Assembly: GCF_000422405.1 (NCBI RefSeq)
Contig: NZ_AULS01000005.1
Location: 1-64,000, forward strand
Origin: Microbacterium luticocti DSM 19459
GTDB lineage: Bacteria; Actinomycetota; Actinomycetes; Actinomycetales; Microbacteriaceae
Reading direction: 5' to 3'
DNA: 64,000 nucleotides
Shown: positions 32,262 to 35,522 of the stretch, in pieces
How the letters are laid out: each line of letters opens with the position of its first letter
Position numbering within the stretch: the stretch's first letter is position 1
Translations under genes and position numbers: made by a program
Notes under the pieces: generated by a model
Told to the model about the DNA's origin: nothing
Database searches by the model: none
The model's input: the letters and a program-made list of their open reading frames with translations, nothing else

Positions 32262-34319
32262 TCAGCCGTCCAGGCCGCGGCGCTTGAGCAGCGGGGCGAT
32301 GTCGGCGTCGCGGCCGCGGAAGTCGCGATAGGCCTCGAGCGGGTCCTTCGAGCCGCCCACGCCGAGCAGCTTCTCGCGGAAGCGGTCGCCGTTCTCGCGG
32401 GTGAGCCCGCCGTTCTCTTTGAACCACTCGACGGTGTCGGCGTCGAGCACTTCGCTCCAGATGTACGAGTAGTACCCGGCGCTGTAGCCGCCCGAGAACA
32501 CGTGCTGGAAGTACGTCGACGAATAGCGCGTCGGCACCGCCGGGTTGTCGAGTCCGATGTCGGCGAGGGCGGATGCCTCGAACCCGGCGACGTCGATCTC
32601 TTGCGCGGCCTGCTGTTCGGTCAACGTGTGCCACGCCTGGTCGAGCCATGCGGCCGCCAGGTACTCGCTGGTGGCGAAGCCCTGGTTGAACGTCTCTGAC
32701 GCCCGGAGCTTGTCGACCACATCGGCCGGCAGCGGCTCGCCGGTCTCGATGTGCCGGGCGTAGTTGTCCAGCACCTCGGGCCACAGCATCCACATCTCGT
32801 TGACTTGGCTGGGGAACTCGACGAAGTCGCGGAACACCTCGGTGCCGGCGAAGTGCGGGTAGGTGACCGTCGCGAACAGCCCGTGCAGCGCGTGTCCGAA
32901 CTCGTGGAACAGCGTGCTCACCTCGTCGAAGCTAAGCAGGGTGGGCTGCCCTGGTGCGGGCTTGGACACGTTGAGGTTGTTGACCACCACGGCCTTCGTG
33001 CCGCGCAGTGCCGACTGGTCGACGATCGAGTTCATCCAGGCGCCGCCGCGCTTCGTGTCGCGCGTGTACAGGTCGAGGATGTACAGGCCCTGCGCCGAGC
33101 CATCGGCGTTGTGCACCTCGAACACCCGTGCGTCGGGGTGGTAGGCCTGCAGGTCGTCGCGTTCGGTGAACGTGACGCCGTACAGCCGCGTCGCCGCGAA
33201 GAAGACGCCGTCGCGCAGCACGCGCTCGGCCTCGAACCAGGGGCGCAGCGCGGCGGTGTCGATCGCATACTCGGCCTGGCGCACCTTTTCGGTGTAGAAC
33301 GCCCAATCGTGCGCGGCGAGCTCGAACCGGTCGCCGGACTCGTCGATCATCGCCTGCAGCGCGGCCTGCTCGCGGCGAGCATTGCGCGCGGCGGGCGCGG
33401 CGAGTCGGTGCAGCAGGTCGCGCACCGCCTGCGGGTTGCCGGCGGTCTCATCGGCGGTCACATACGCCGCGTGCGAGTCGTAGCCGAGCAGCGCGGCGCG
33501 CTCCGCCCGCAACCGCACGATCTGGCGCAGCACGTCACGGTTGTCGTTCGCGTTGCCGCGCGAGCCCCGCGCCCGCGACGCGTCCATGATCCGCCGCCGG
33601 GCGTCGCGATCGTGCATACCGGCGAGGTAGGGGTGCCCGGTGAACAGGGGGAGCGTGACCAGGTACGCGCCGTCCAGACCGCGCTCGGCCGCGGCCTGCG
33701 CCGCCGCCGACAGCTCGCCGTCGGTCAGGCCCGCCAGATCGTCGGCGTCGCGGAACAGCACGGCAAGGTCGTTGGTGTCGGCCAGCAGGTTCTTGTCGAA
33801 CGTCGTGGTCAGGGTCGATAGCTGGGTGTTCAGCGCGGTGACCTCGGCCTTGGCGGCGTCGTCCAGCCCCGCGCCGGCGTGTGTCATCTCGCGGTACCAG
33901 CGCTGCACCAGGTAGTGCTCCTCCGGCGCCAGGTCGAGGTCGTCCAGCCGGTCGTGCAGGCTCTTGATGCGCGCGTAGAGCCGGCCGTCGAGCTGGATCG
34001 CGTCCTGGTGCGCGGCCATCAGCGGGGCGAGCTGCTCTTCGATCTGCTGGATCTTCTCGGTCGCATCGGCGGATGACACCGTGTAGAACGCCGTCGCGAC
34101 GTCGTGCAGCAGGCGGCCCGAGTTCTCCAGCGGCACCATGGTGTTCTCGAACGTCGGCGTCGAGCGCACCCGCGTGATCGCGGCGATCTCCTGCAGGTGT
34201 TCGTCGAACGCGACCTCGAACGCCGGCAGATAGTGTTCCGGGCGGATCTGCGCGTACGGCGGAAGGCCGTACGGGAGGGTGCTGGGGGACAGAAGAGGGT
34301 TGGCCGAGGCATCCGTCAT
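32262..34319 (-). CDS. dcp: M3-family peptidyl-dipeptidase (Dcp type)
   Basis: 685-residue zinc peptidase that cuts dipeptides from C-termini of peptides. The N-terminal helical half is about 1-400. The catalytic motif TLFHEFGHALHGL (HExxH) and the downstream Glu in FVEFPSQVNEMWM complete the zinc site. The C-terminal YSAGYYSYIWSEVLD is conserved in Dcp/OpdA. It works with PepN in clearing Clp-generated peptides (general inference). The ATG at 34319 lies 6 nt after TACGCT; the promoter region overlaps the 14-bp operator repeats of the divergent regulator. Confidence 0.93.
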   Translation of the reverse strand: MTDASANPLLSPSTLPYGLPPYAQIRPEHYLPAFEVAFDEHLQEIAAITRVRSTPTFENTMVPLENSGRLLHDVATAFYTVSSADATEKIQQIEEQLAPLMAAHQDAIQLDGRLYARIKSLHDRLDDLDLAPEEHYLVQRWYREMTHAGAGLDDAAKAEVTALNTQLSTLTTTFDKNLLADTNDLAVLFRDADDLAGLTDGELSAAAQAAAERGLDGAYLVTLPLFTGHPYLAGMHDRDARRRIMDASRARGSRGNANDNRDVLRQIVRLRAERAALLGYDSHAAYVTADETAGNPQAVRDLLHRLAAPAARNARREQAALQAMIDESGDRFELAAHDWAFYTEKVRQAEYAIDTAALRPWFEAERVLRDGVFFAATRLYGVTFTERDDLQAYHPDARVFEVHNADGSAQGLYILDLYTRDTKRGGAWMNSIVDQSALRGTKAVVVNNLNVSKPAPGQPTLLSFDEVSTLFHEFGHALHGLFATVTYPHFAGTEVFRDFVEFPSQVNEMWMLWPEVLDNYARHIETGEPLPADVVDKLRASETFNQGFATSEYLAAAWLDQAWHTLTEQQAAQEIDVAGFEASALADIGLDNPAVPTRYSSTYFQHVFSGGYSAGYYSYIWSEVLDADTVEWFKENGGLTRENGDRFREKLLGVGGSKDPLEAYRDFRGRDADIAPLLKRRGLDG

Positions 34320-34325
34320 GGACCC

Positions 34326-34331
34326 AGCGTA
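34326..34331 (-). promoter_or_regulatory. -10 element of dcp (leaderless)
   Basis: Minus strand TACGCT, 6 nt before the ATG at 34319. TTTGCG, 16 bp upstream, falls within the first 14-bp operator unit and could be the -35. Confidence 0.45.
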
Positions 34332-34346: not shown

Positions 34347-34408
34347 TCGCAAAGAACCACTTGCAAAGAAACACTTGCAAAAGATCATTCGCAAAGGTAT
34401 CTTTGCAG
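34347..34408. repeat. Iterated 14-bp operator (four units plus a partial)
   Basis: Units at 34347-34360, 34361-34374, 34375-34388 and 34389-34402, each T[T/C]GCAAA followed by seven variable bases, then TTGCAG at 34403-34408. The 14-bp period is exact. The array covers the promoter of the ArsR-type regulator and reaches the dcp promoter. Confidence 0.8.
34375..34403 (+). promoter_or_regulatory. Promoter of the ArsR-type regulator (leaderless)
   Basis: TTGCAA (34375-34380), 17 bp, TATCTT (34398-34403), then 7 nt to the ATG at 34411. Both hexamers are embedded in the repeated operator, so a bound repressor would block polymerase directly. Confidence 0.7.
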
Positions 34409-34410
34409 AC

Positions 34411-35019
34411 ATGGACGAGAACACCCAGTCTCAGACGCCTGGCGGTGCGCGCAAGCCGCGGCTCATCGACGGCGGTGCGCTGCGCGCCCTGGCTCACCCG
34501 CTGCGCGTGCAGATCTACGACATCCTGTCGCAGTACGGGCCGCAGACCGCCAGCAGCCTGGCCGCCATGACGGGGGAGTCCACCGGGGCCACCAGCTACC
34601 ACCTGCGTGCGCTCGCCAAGCACGACCTGATCCGCGAGGTCGACGGCCGCGGCACCGCCCGGGAGCGGTGGTGGGAGCGGCCCCAGGGGTCGGTCACCTT
34701 CGGCAGCCCCGAGGGGCTGAAGACCCCGGCGGGTCGTGCCGCCACTCAGGTGGTGCTGACCGAGTTCCTCAACCGCCGACACCAGCAACTGCTGCACTAC
34801 GTGGCCGAAGGGCTGCGCAAGCCGGATGATCCCGACGAGACCGGCATGATCACCACCGCGACCGCCCGATTGACCGCGGACCAGATGGCCGACCTGACCG
34901 CGCGGCTCACCGTCATCATCGACGAGTTCGTCGACAAGTACCGCGACCAGCCCGGTGACGGTCTGCGCACCGTGACCATCCGCGCCGACGTCTTCGCTCT
35001 TCCCGAGGAGGGACACTGA
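34411..35019 (+). CDS. ArsR-type winged-helix transcriptional regulator
   Basis: 202 residues. The N-terminal winged helix (about 20-85) reads ALRALAHPLRVQIYDILSQY, then TASSLAAMTGESTGATSYHL and LAKHDLIREVDGRGTARE. The C-terminal 100 residues are helical (LTADQMADLTARLTVIIDEF) and may dimerise or sense. No metal-binding Cys cluster is seen, so it is not a classic metal sensor. The promoter is buried in a 14-bp repeated operator, implying autoregulation and possibly control of the divergent dcp. The small gene at 35021 follows by 1 nt. Confidence 0.88.
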   Translation: MDENTQSQTPGGARKPRLIDGGALRALAHPLRVQIYDILSQYGPQTASSLAAMTGESTGATSYHLRALAKHDLIREVDGRGTARERWWERPQGSVTFGSPEGLKTPAGRAATQVVLTEFLNRRHQQLLHYVAEGLRKPDDPDETGMITTATARLTADQMADLTARLTVIIDEFVDKYRDQPGDGLRTVTIRADVFALPEEGH

Positions 35020-35020
35020 C

Positions 35021-35224
35021 ATGACCGCCATGACCACCCGTGCCATCCGCACGCCCGACCTGACACCGCTGGAACGGATGCTGTTGACCTCGGCACGCGC
35101 GCTCGAGTGCGCGGTGCGGCGACGGATGGCGCGACGCCAGGCCGCGGCATCCACCGGCTTCGACCCGGTCGAGCAGCGCCGGGCCCACGCCGTCGACGCC
35201 TACCGGCGGCTGCACCTGCGGTGA
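35021..35224 (+). CDS. Small basic protein, 67 aa
   Basis: Arg-rich, helical small protein: LTPLERMLLTSARALECAVR, then RRRMARRQAAAS and a C-terminal RRAHAVDAYRRLHLR. No family recognised. The ATG lies 1 nt after the stop of the ArsR-type regulator and GAGGAGG is 10 nt upstream, so it is co-transcribed and translated with it. It could be a partner of the regulator or a small membrane-surface protein; neither can be shown from the sequence. Confidence 0.6.
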   Translation: MTAMTTRAIRTPDLTPLERMLLTSARALECAVRRRMARRQAAASTGFDPVEQRRAHAVDAYRRLHLR

Positions 35225-35279
35225 GCGCACCGGTGCTCCGGCGCAACGCAGGCCGCACCGTCGGCCCGCCGATCGCGGT

Positions 35280-35522
35280 CTAGCCGAACTCGTCCTCGTC
35301 GTCGTGGCGCACGACGACCTGCCCGGTGTGGTCGAGGGTCACGATGACGCCGAGATCGAGTTCGGCCACGGGCCGGCCCTCGAGCCAGGTGAGCGTCCAG
35401 CGTGCGACGCCCTGTTCGTCGGGCGGCAGGTCGACCTCGACGGCGCGCAGCTGCGCGACGAACTCGGGCGAAAGCTGTGCCGGCGGTTCAGCTCCCGCGG
35501 CCCACCGTGTGCCCAGCTGCAT
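35280..35522 (-). CDS. Hypothetical protein, 80 aa
   Basis: Small acidic protein starting MQLGTRWAAGAEPPAQLSPE, with a beta-rich middle (RWTLTWLEGRPVAELDLGVI) and an acidic tail ending DDEDEFG. No named domain. The ATG follows the valS stop by one base on the minus strand, so it is probably the last gene of a valS transcript and read by coupled re-initiation. Function unknown; small proteins of this kind occur behind valS in relatives as far as I recall. Confidence 0.6.
   Translation of the reverse strand: MQLGTRWAAGAEPPAQLSPEFVAQLRAVEVDLPPDEQGVARWTLTWLEGRPVAELDLGVIVTLDHTGQVVVRHDDEDEFG

Follow-up and report, generated by a model that had tools for sequence, protein, structure and literature searches.

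ArsR-type repressors usually act on operators that are single palindromes, and an operator consensus of theirs is of the TGAA-N6-TTCA type. In the available parts of the respective reports, CodY dimers are described as binding cooperatively to overlapping sites of 15 nt that overlap by 6 nt, with longer chains suggested and an overlapping-dimer model mentioned for Fur (PMC10415144), and the small winged-helix repressor TubR is described as occupying the iterated direct repeats of tubC in a filament that wraps DNA (PMC5016525). By analogy, the nearest studied protein that we encountered appears to be LugJ of Staphylococcus lugdunensis, which the available text presents as a dimeric repressor of divergent export genes, modelled on 4G6Q, that gives a second shifted band, is released by lugdunin and has one AT-rich 26-bp palindrome as its operator (PMC11980582).

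Here, we analyzed an array of 14-bp steps in front of an ArsR-like regulator gene of Microbacterium luticocti DSM 19459; the window is the whole stretch of 64,000 nucleotides that was examined (contig NZ_AULS01000005.1, positions 1 to 64,000). Its sequence most likely reflects side-by-side packing of several regulator molecules over their own promoter, a pattern that seems to be common to many relatives. No description of the array was found in the open-access PMC literature searched (titles and abstract starts), a scope that most subscription journals fall outside.

The array, its promoters and the adjacent regulator

The array occupies the intergenic region between the start codon of dcp (34319, minus strand) and that of the regulator gene (34411, plus strand). 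The divergent neighbour dcp (32262..34319, minus strand) encodes a peptidase of family M3, peptidyl-dipeptidase Dcp-like, and the regulator gene (34411..35019, plus strand) encodes a protein of 202 aa with an N-terminal HTH_20/ArsR winged helix followed by C-terminal helices. A first-pass annotation had described 14-bp units of the TYGCAAA type with a fifth partial unit, and these were confirmed by the exact coordinates, by self-comparison and by a random model. The units TCGCAAA (34347), TTGCAAA (34361), TTGCAAA (34375), TCGCAAA (34389) and the partial TTGCAGA (34403) follow one another at exact 14-bp steps. When the 70-bp stretch is compared with itself over lags 5 to 39, identity reaches 0.64 for lag 14 and 0.57 for lag 28, and the remaining lags give 0.11-0.38. 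The longest chain of units spaced by 14 bp is four, versus a maximum of two (9 cases) in 200,000 random 91-bp stretches drawn from a first-order model built on the same 91-bp intergenic region.

The motif T[TC]GCAAA occurs four times on the plus strand and never on the minus strand of the 64-kb window, and all four occurrences lie in the array. Across the entire 3.1-Mb genome, TGCAAA-N8-TGCAAA with at most one mismatch has four matches, all of them in the array, with no control matches; the search for such repeats elsewhere that had been recommended as a check thus finds the two-unit word confined to this locus. The inverted form, TGCAAA-N6-TTTGCA with at most one mismatch, is likewise found only in the array, and its backwards control matches once per strand.

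The constant element of the array is the TGCA centre of each unit. Core 1 (34348..34351) has the CGCA form and marks the gene-distal end of the lattice, approximately at the expected -35 of dcp; core 2 (34362..34365) and core 3 (34376..34379) are TGCA, and core 4 (34390..34393) is again CGCA. Core 5 (TGCA, 34404..34407), the partial unit of the annotation, is a core in the opposite orientation (CTTTGCA), and the array therefore reads >>>><. Adjacent cores delimit four overlapping palindromes as putative dimer sites, namely P1 on cores 1 and 2 (34348..34365), P2 (34362..34379), P3 (34376..34393) and the gene-proximal P4 (CGCAAAGGTATCTTTGCA, 34390..34407), of which P2, P3 and P4 match the palindrome at one mismatch.

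The predicted -35 of the regulator, TTGCAA (34375..34380, plus strand), lies in core 3, and the predicted -10, TATCTT (34398..34403, plus strand), overlaps P4 after a spacer of 17 bp, both located as the annotation had claimed. Relatives carry a -10-like hexamer at the same distance from the core: the best hexamer lies 17 bp from the core's TTGCAA in 66 of 67 orthologue loci (TATCTT in 39), a score taken only 16-18 bp from the core, which assumes a -35 inside it and makes the spacing of 17 the actual result. Given these positions, P3 and P4 together would cover both predicted elements. The regulator start codon follows 7 bases past the predicted -10, so its transcript is probably leaderless. 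On the minus strand, TACGCT (34326..34331) is a candidate -10 of dcp. A -10-like motif for dcp was present upstream of the first core in all 44 dcp-linked loci scored (a loose pattern with three alternatives), and in 25 of the 44, a count made without L066 and L067, it begins 33-37 bp from the first core. Control of dcp by the array is therefore plausible where the two genes are divergent.

The regulator scores above the cut-offs of HTH_20 (PF12840; 38.6 bits, cut-off 27) and HTH_5 (32.5, cut-off 22) and below that of NCBIfam HTH_metalloreg (38 of 55 bits). Its 202 residues include no cysteine, so that a cysteine-based metal site is absent, other ligands still being possible; on these two grounds, a metallosensor reading is unsupported. 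The predicted structure (mean pLDDT 90.2, pTM 0.82) has as its top full-length fold match 4g6q, Kfla_6221 of Kribbella flavida (Z 12.6, rmsd 4.0, 169 aligned residues). CadC came second (Z 12.1, 76 residues) and is tied with 4g6q on Z alone; the structures of CadC, CzrA, SmtB and ArsR align to the winged helix of the regulator. By sequence, the family profile matches NolR, NmtR and others. TubR and CodY are not named among the best 50 structure matches listed, too short a list to exclude either. PADLOC gave only Csa3-like winged-helix matches, which we took as the common fold. Several regulators from the genome search (L232, L234, L240 and L260) have one in-frame TGA in the matched stretch, possibly a true stop ahead of a low-scoring tail.

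Conservation of the array and turnover of its neighbours

Of 148 related genomes searched with the protein, 109 gave a match, and we read the best 70 loci at one per genome; 62 belong to the genus, counting that of the window, and 8 do not. Cores were present in 67 of these 70 loci, and the 330 pairs of cores no more than 60 bp apart are without exception separated by 14, 28, 42 or 56 bp; the orthologues are related, and these counts do not represent independent events. Three loci of one genus outside that of the window (L069, L070 and L073) have no such cores. The number of cores ranges from 2 to 7 in the loci seen, some loci having only 2-3. The word TTGCAAA-N7-TTGCAAA has 61 matches in 41 of 87 genus genomes (own included), all of them upstream of the orthologue, at 18-112 bp from its aligned start. 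Versions with N6 or N8, corresponding to steps of 13 and 15 bp, are absent from all 87 genus genomes, and the backwards control word occurs with N7 in one genome (G022), with N6 in two (G048 and G057) and with N8 in none.

A scan of the genome collection for a pattern of three cores found at least 117 stretches. Among the matches listed, 103 of 117 have a regulator-family protein starting no more than 200 bp away, and the array-bearing loci beside family members include Streptomyces, Nocardia, Micromonospora, Kribbella and Arthrobacter as well as Brevibacterium, Agromyces, Demequina and Rhizobium. Two further stretches have a family member farther off (316 and 1,436 bp), and 12 of those listed have none in the fetched DNA; by eye, several of the 12 are tandem repeats or AT-rich palindromes. 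Among the stretches whose fetched DNA contains no family member, three (L141, L155 and L212, with sources including Shewanella and a Pirellulaceae bin) are 14-bp tandem repeats of TTGCAAA-like units.

The existence of such repeats is what could be said for a non-functional tandem repeat produced by slippage. At the loci of the family, however, the bases between the cores vary while core and spacing are kept (67/70), the cores stand in both orientations, and the 13- and 15-bp versions are missing from the genus. We rejected slippage, since the spacers differ at an invariant spacing, and regard its probability as negligible.

The array was retained in all 46 examined loci that have the dcp-regulator pair, and the loss of the repeats beside a kept pair, which the first-pass annotation had named as evidence against its reading, was thus not seen. 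In the other 24 of the 70 loci, 16 of them within the genus, no dcp was found in the upstream DNA fetched, and the lattice is nevertheless present in 21 of the 24. The array therefore travels with the regulator and belongs to it, not to dcp, and we rejected a dcp-specific operator as the main function. In a change to the reading of the annotation, dcp is not an essential partner. In one genus group (L045-L050, L056 and L058-L064), the array is kept and the regulator lies downstream of a kbl-like gene, presumably for glycine C-acetyltransferase to judge from its sequence, rather than opposite dcp.

Downstream neighbours vary as well. An MFS transporter gene lies 3' of the regulator in 26 of the 70 orthologue loci (tblastn), and the species of the window has no MFS gene in the 1,497 bp 3' of the regulator. 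Opposite-strand genes follow the regulator there (35019-35280), where the 26 related loci have the transporter. With two MFS seeds, a downstream MFS gene was detected in 19 of the 103 scan loci listed, 16 of the 103 having less than 600 bp left downstream. Pfam searches on 10 neighbouring ORFs from 20 picked scan loci returned MFS for three, nothing for three, and one each of epoxide hydrolase, alpha/beta hydrolase, penicillin amidase and a PAS protein. An MFS transporter as a general partner was rejected, the partners varying between loci. From these neighbours (MFS exporters, hydrolases and a peptidase), our guess is that the ligand would be a small organic molecule or a peptide.

ArsR-like genes are common, with 25 PF12840 matches in the genome of the window, 14 of them above the cut-off, so that another protein might bind the array and the regulator be merely a hitch-hiking neighbour. 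This we consider very improbable: the array adjoins the regulator family across numerous genera of actinobacteria as well as in Rhizobium (among the matches listed), stays with the regulator as other neighbours change, and has a period that tracks the recognition helix of the regulator (see below). The proposal of the annotation that the array is an operator of the adjacent ArsR-like regulator is supported, as far as association goes, by this co-occurrence of motif and family and by the 46 pair loci; binding itself stays a prediction.

Position of the predicted dimers on the lattice

The two ends of an array indicate where a dimer would sit, since a dimer centred on a core should keep both halves of an end core, and one placed between cores should keep mainly the inward halves. 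At position 4 of the end cores in 62 of the 70 orthologue loci (those with fewer than three strict cores were left out), the inward base is kept in 118 of 124 cases and the outward base in 34 of 124. Outside the genus, the inward base is kept in 51/54 and the outward base in 19/54 for 27 loci, a set from which L237 and L239 (window, same genus) were left out; without the five loci common to the 70-locus set, 22 remain, with 42/44 and 17/44, respectively. The outward halves are thus not fully random (17/44 compared to 11 expected at one in four). In the scan set, this test is biased, the pattern having required the inner halves, and we relied on the protein-first sets. The inward conservation suggests a binding unit that likely spans two cores, TGCAAAG-N4-CTTTGCA, with neighbouring units sharing TGCA. 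The single repressor site per unit that the annotation had assumed is probably incorrect in favour of a palindrome across two units.

A different placement would put one dimer on each pseudo-palindromic 8-bp core, with both recognition helices in one major groove and packing every 14 bp, in the style of TubR, FadR and CodY. Single-groove binding by paired helices is described for these three proteins in the available part of one report (PMC10415144). The information in the cores peaks at the TGCA centre, although the cores were picked largely by TGCA, and the changed cores of relatives stay near-palindromic (TTTCGAAA, TTGCGCAA, TTGTACAA and TGTGCACA). Such a dimer should nevertheless need both halves of every core, our own yardstick for this arrangement, whereas the outer half of the end cores is far less kept than the inner one, and we consider it rather unlikely.

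The gaps between cores differ in the quality of their palindromes. With GCAAAG and CTTTGC as halves, perfect palindromes number 31 among the 67 proximal gaps and, at successively greater distance from the gene, 14 among 62, 1 among 38 and 0 among 5. The proximal gap resembles TGCAAAG-N4-CTTTGCA, an inverted repeat of the ArsR type with half-sites approximately one turn apart. This concentration of perfect palindromes suggests one strong predicted site on the promoter, with weaker sites further upstream. It would also fit an operator restricted to the gene-proximal palindrome, with the upstream units being auxiliary half-sites or remnants under weak selection, as would the loci with only two or three cores. 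However, the upstream cores are strictly phased at 14 bp in 67/67 loci with cores, and the gene-distal GCAAAG half is as well kept in the upstream gaps (mean 5.74-5.80 of 6) as in the proximal one (5.51), which makes a proximal-only operator quite improbable in our view.

Some features are explained less completely by overlapping palindromes. The middle cores are asymmetric (CTTGCAAAG), so one side of the upstream palindromes is a poor match and these sites may be unbound; the overlapping-palindrome model accounts for this asymmetry only in part. Odd core numbers (3 and 5) are compatible with N-1 dimers and also with other models.

On balance, the array is probably the autorepressor operator of the regulator, occupied by a chain of overlapping dimers. 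Binding, dimer formation, cooperativity, repression and a ligand, all of which we infer, would combine as follows. A regulator homodimer would bind an 18-bp palindrome over two adjacent cores, with approximately one helical turn between its half-sites; each palindrome would share a 4-bp TGCA core with the next, allowing one dimer every 14 bp. At 10.5 bp per turn, 14 bp correspond to 480 degrees, which would turn each dimer by approximately 120 degrees from the previous one and bring every third into phase. The annotation had pointed to such rotated neighbours, and a 14-bp period, not being a whole number of helical turns, does imply the rotation. The arrangement had also been called unusual for ArsR-type dimers; this holds for the overlap of the palindromes, but each palindrome on its own, CAAA-N6-TTTG, is ordinary. 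Occupancy would probably begin at the gene-proximal palindrome, which lies on the -10 and is the best in relatives; cooperative filling of the weaker upstream palindromes would then cover the -35 and extend in the direction of dcp. The bound chain would block the regulator promoter and, where dcp is divergent, probably the dcp promoter as well; a ligand would release it.

The family-wide period and comparison with known systems

To avoid selection by motif, we searched 296 genomes of the phylum with an alignment (A1) that combines the window protein with 49 members found beside arrays. The search gave 62 matches from 43 genomes, and we read 60 distinct loci, L277 being left out as a duplicate of L261. 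At least two TTTGCAAA-like cores occur in 26 of the 60. Among the other 34, with none or one such core, lag 14 was the best in 15.7 compared to 2 expected, where the best lag was taken between 8 and 24, ties were shared and the expectation assumes equal lags. As a control, we took 19 further HTH_20-like loci from the genome that contains the window, cut at a different place than the family loci for lack of defined start codons; here lag 14 was the best in 1.0, and lags 9, 21 and 12 lead. By eye, the cores of the relatives differ yet are near-palindromic, including TTTGCGAA besides the four changed cores named above. The loci L257, L258, L262, L263, L268, L269 and L272-L274 carry the cores TTTCGAAA, TTTGCGAA, TTGCGCAA and TTGTACAA at approximately 14-bp steps. 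The 14-bp period despite differing cores suggests that the period is a trait of the family and the core a trait of the subfamily, as seems to be the case from these sequences.

In 100 distinct family loci, the best lag is 13 or 14 in about 62 and neither in about 38; as in the 34-locus analysis, duplicates and any stretch shorter than 100 bp were omitted. The lag follows classes of the recognition helix, which were drawn after part of the data had been seen: lag 13 is the best in 11.5 of 14 loci whose helix starts with x[TS]N[TS]G, and of the 33 loci of the xE class, 19.5 have their best lag at 14 and 2.5 at 13. Six newly added loci of the TN class (L294, L301, L302, L303, L305 and L308) show 13 bp in five, the exception being L308. 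TN-type helices, TGTGCACA-like cores and 13-bp steps occur together at L253, L261, L264, L265, L294, L301-L303 and L305. We tentatively propose, as a possibility somewhat short of even, that across this large repressor family the recognition helix would determine which near-palindromic core is used and at which step (14 bp for xE, 13 bp for x[TS]N[TS]G), and that dimers would polymerise on overlapping palindromes as a screw of approximately 120 or 86 degrees per dimer, spreading from the promoter over a length set by the number of cores.

If true, the DNA sites of a large and little-studied repressor family could be read from sequence, with core type and step predicting the binding regulator and core number predicting the dimers assembled. 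It would also represent a new geometry of cooperative repression by ArsR-like proteins, and the loci, with steps of 13 and 14 bp and 2 to 7 cores, would form a natural series for the effect of helical phase and chain length on the response.

Among known systems, the regulator shares with ArsR/SmtB proteins a winged helix above the HTH_20 and HTH_5 cut-offs, and its predicted site CAAA-N6-TTTG has the half-site distance of TGAA-N6-TTCA. It differs by its long C-terminal part, the lack of cysteine and a score below the metalloregulator cut-off, and its operator would be a chain of overlapping palindromes rather than one. Kfla_6221 (4g6q), whose function is not known, is matched over the full-length fold, and LugJ is likened to the regulator through its 4g6q model; in contrast, the LugJ operator, as given in the available part of the report, is without a TGCA lattice. 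Phr of Pyrococcus furiosus (2p4w; Z 11.1, 76 residues) and PH1932 (1uly and 2cwe; for 2cwe, Z 10.8, 134 residues) also combine a winged helix with a C-terminal part at a similar chain length, but are archaeal. TubR is likewise a winged-helix regulator with iterated sites, but it is a plasmid partition protein that places both helices in one major groove, whereas the end cores here favour sites between cores. The likeness to CodY and Fur lies in a conserved fixed step with a shared half-site region, found here as 14-bp steps (67/70) and conserved inner halves. These two belong to other protein families, and a step of 14 (or 13) bp with a shared 4-bp core contrasts with a 9-nt step, as does the single site cluster in the window's genome with a global regulon. 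Both the protein domain and overlapping-dimer operators are already known; a 14/13-bp lattice of an ArsR-like regulator that is tied to the recognition helix appears to be new.
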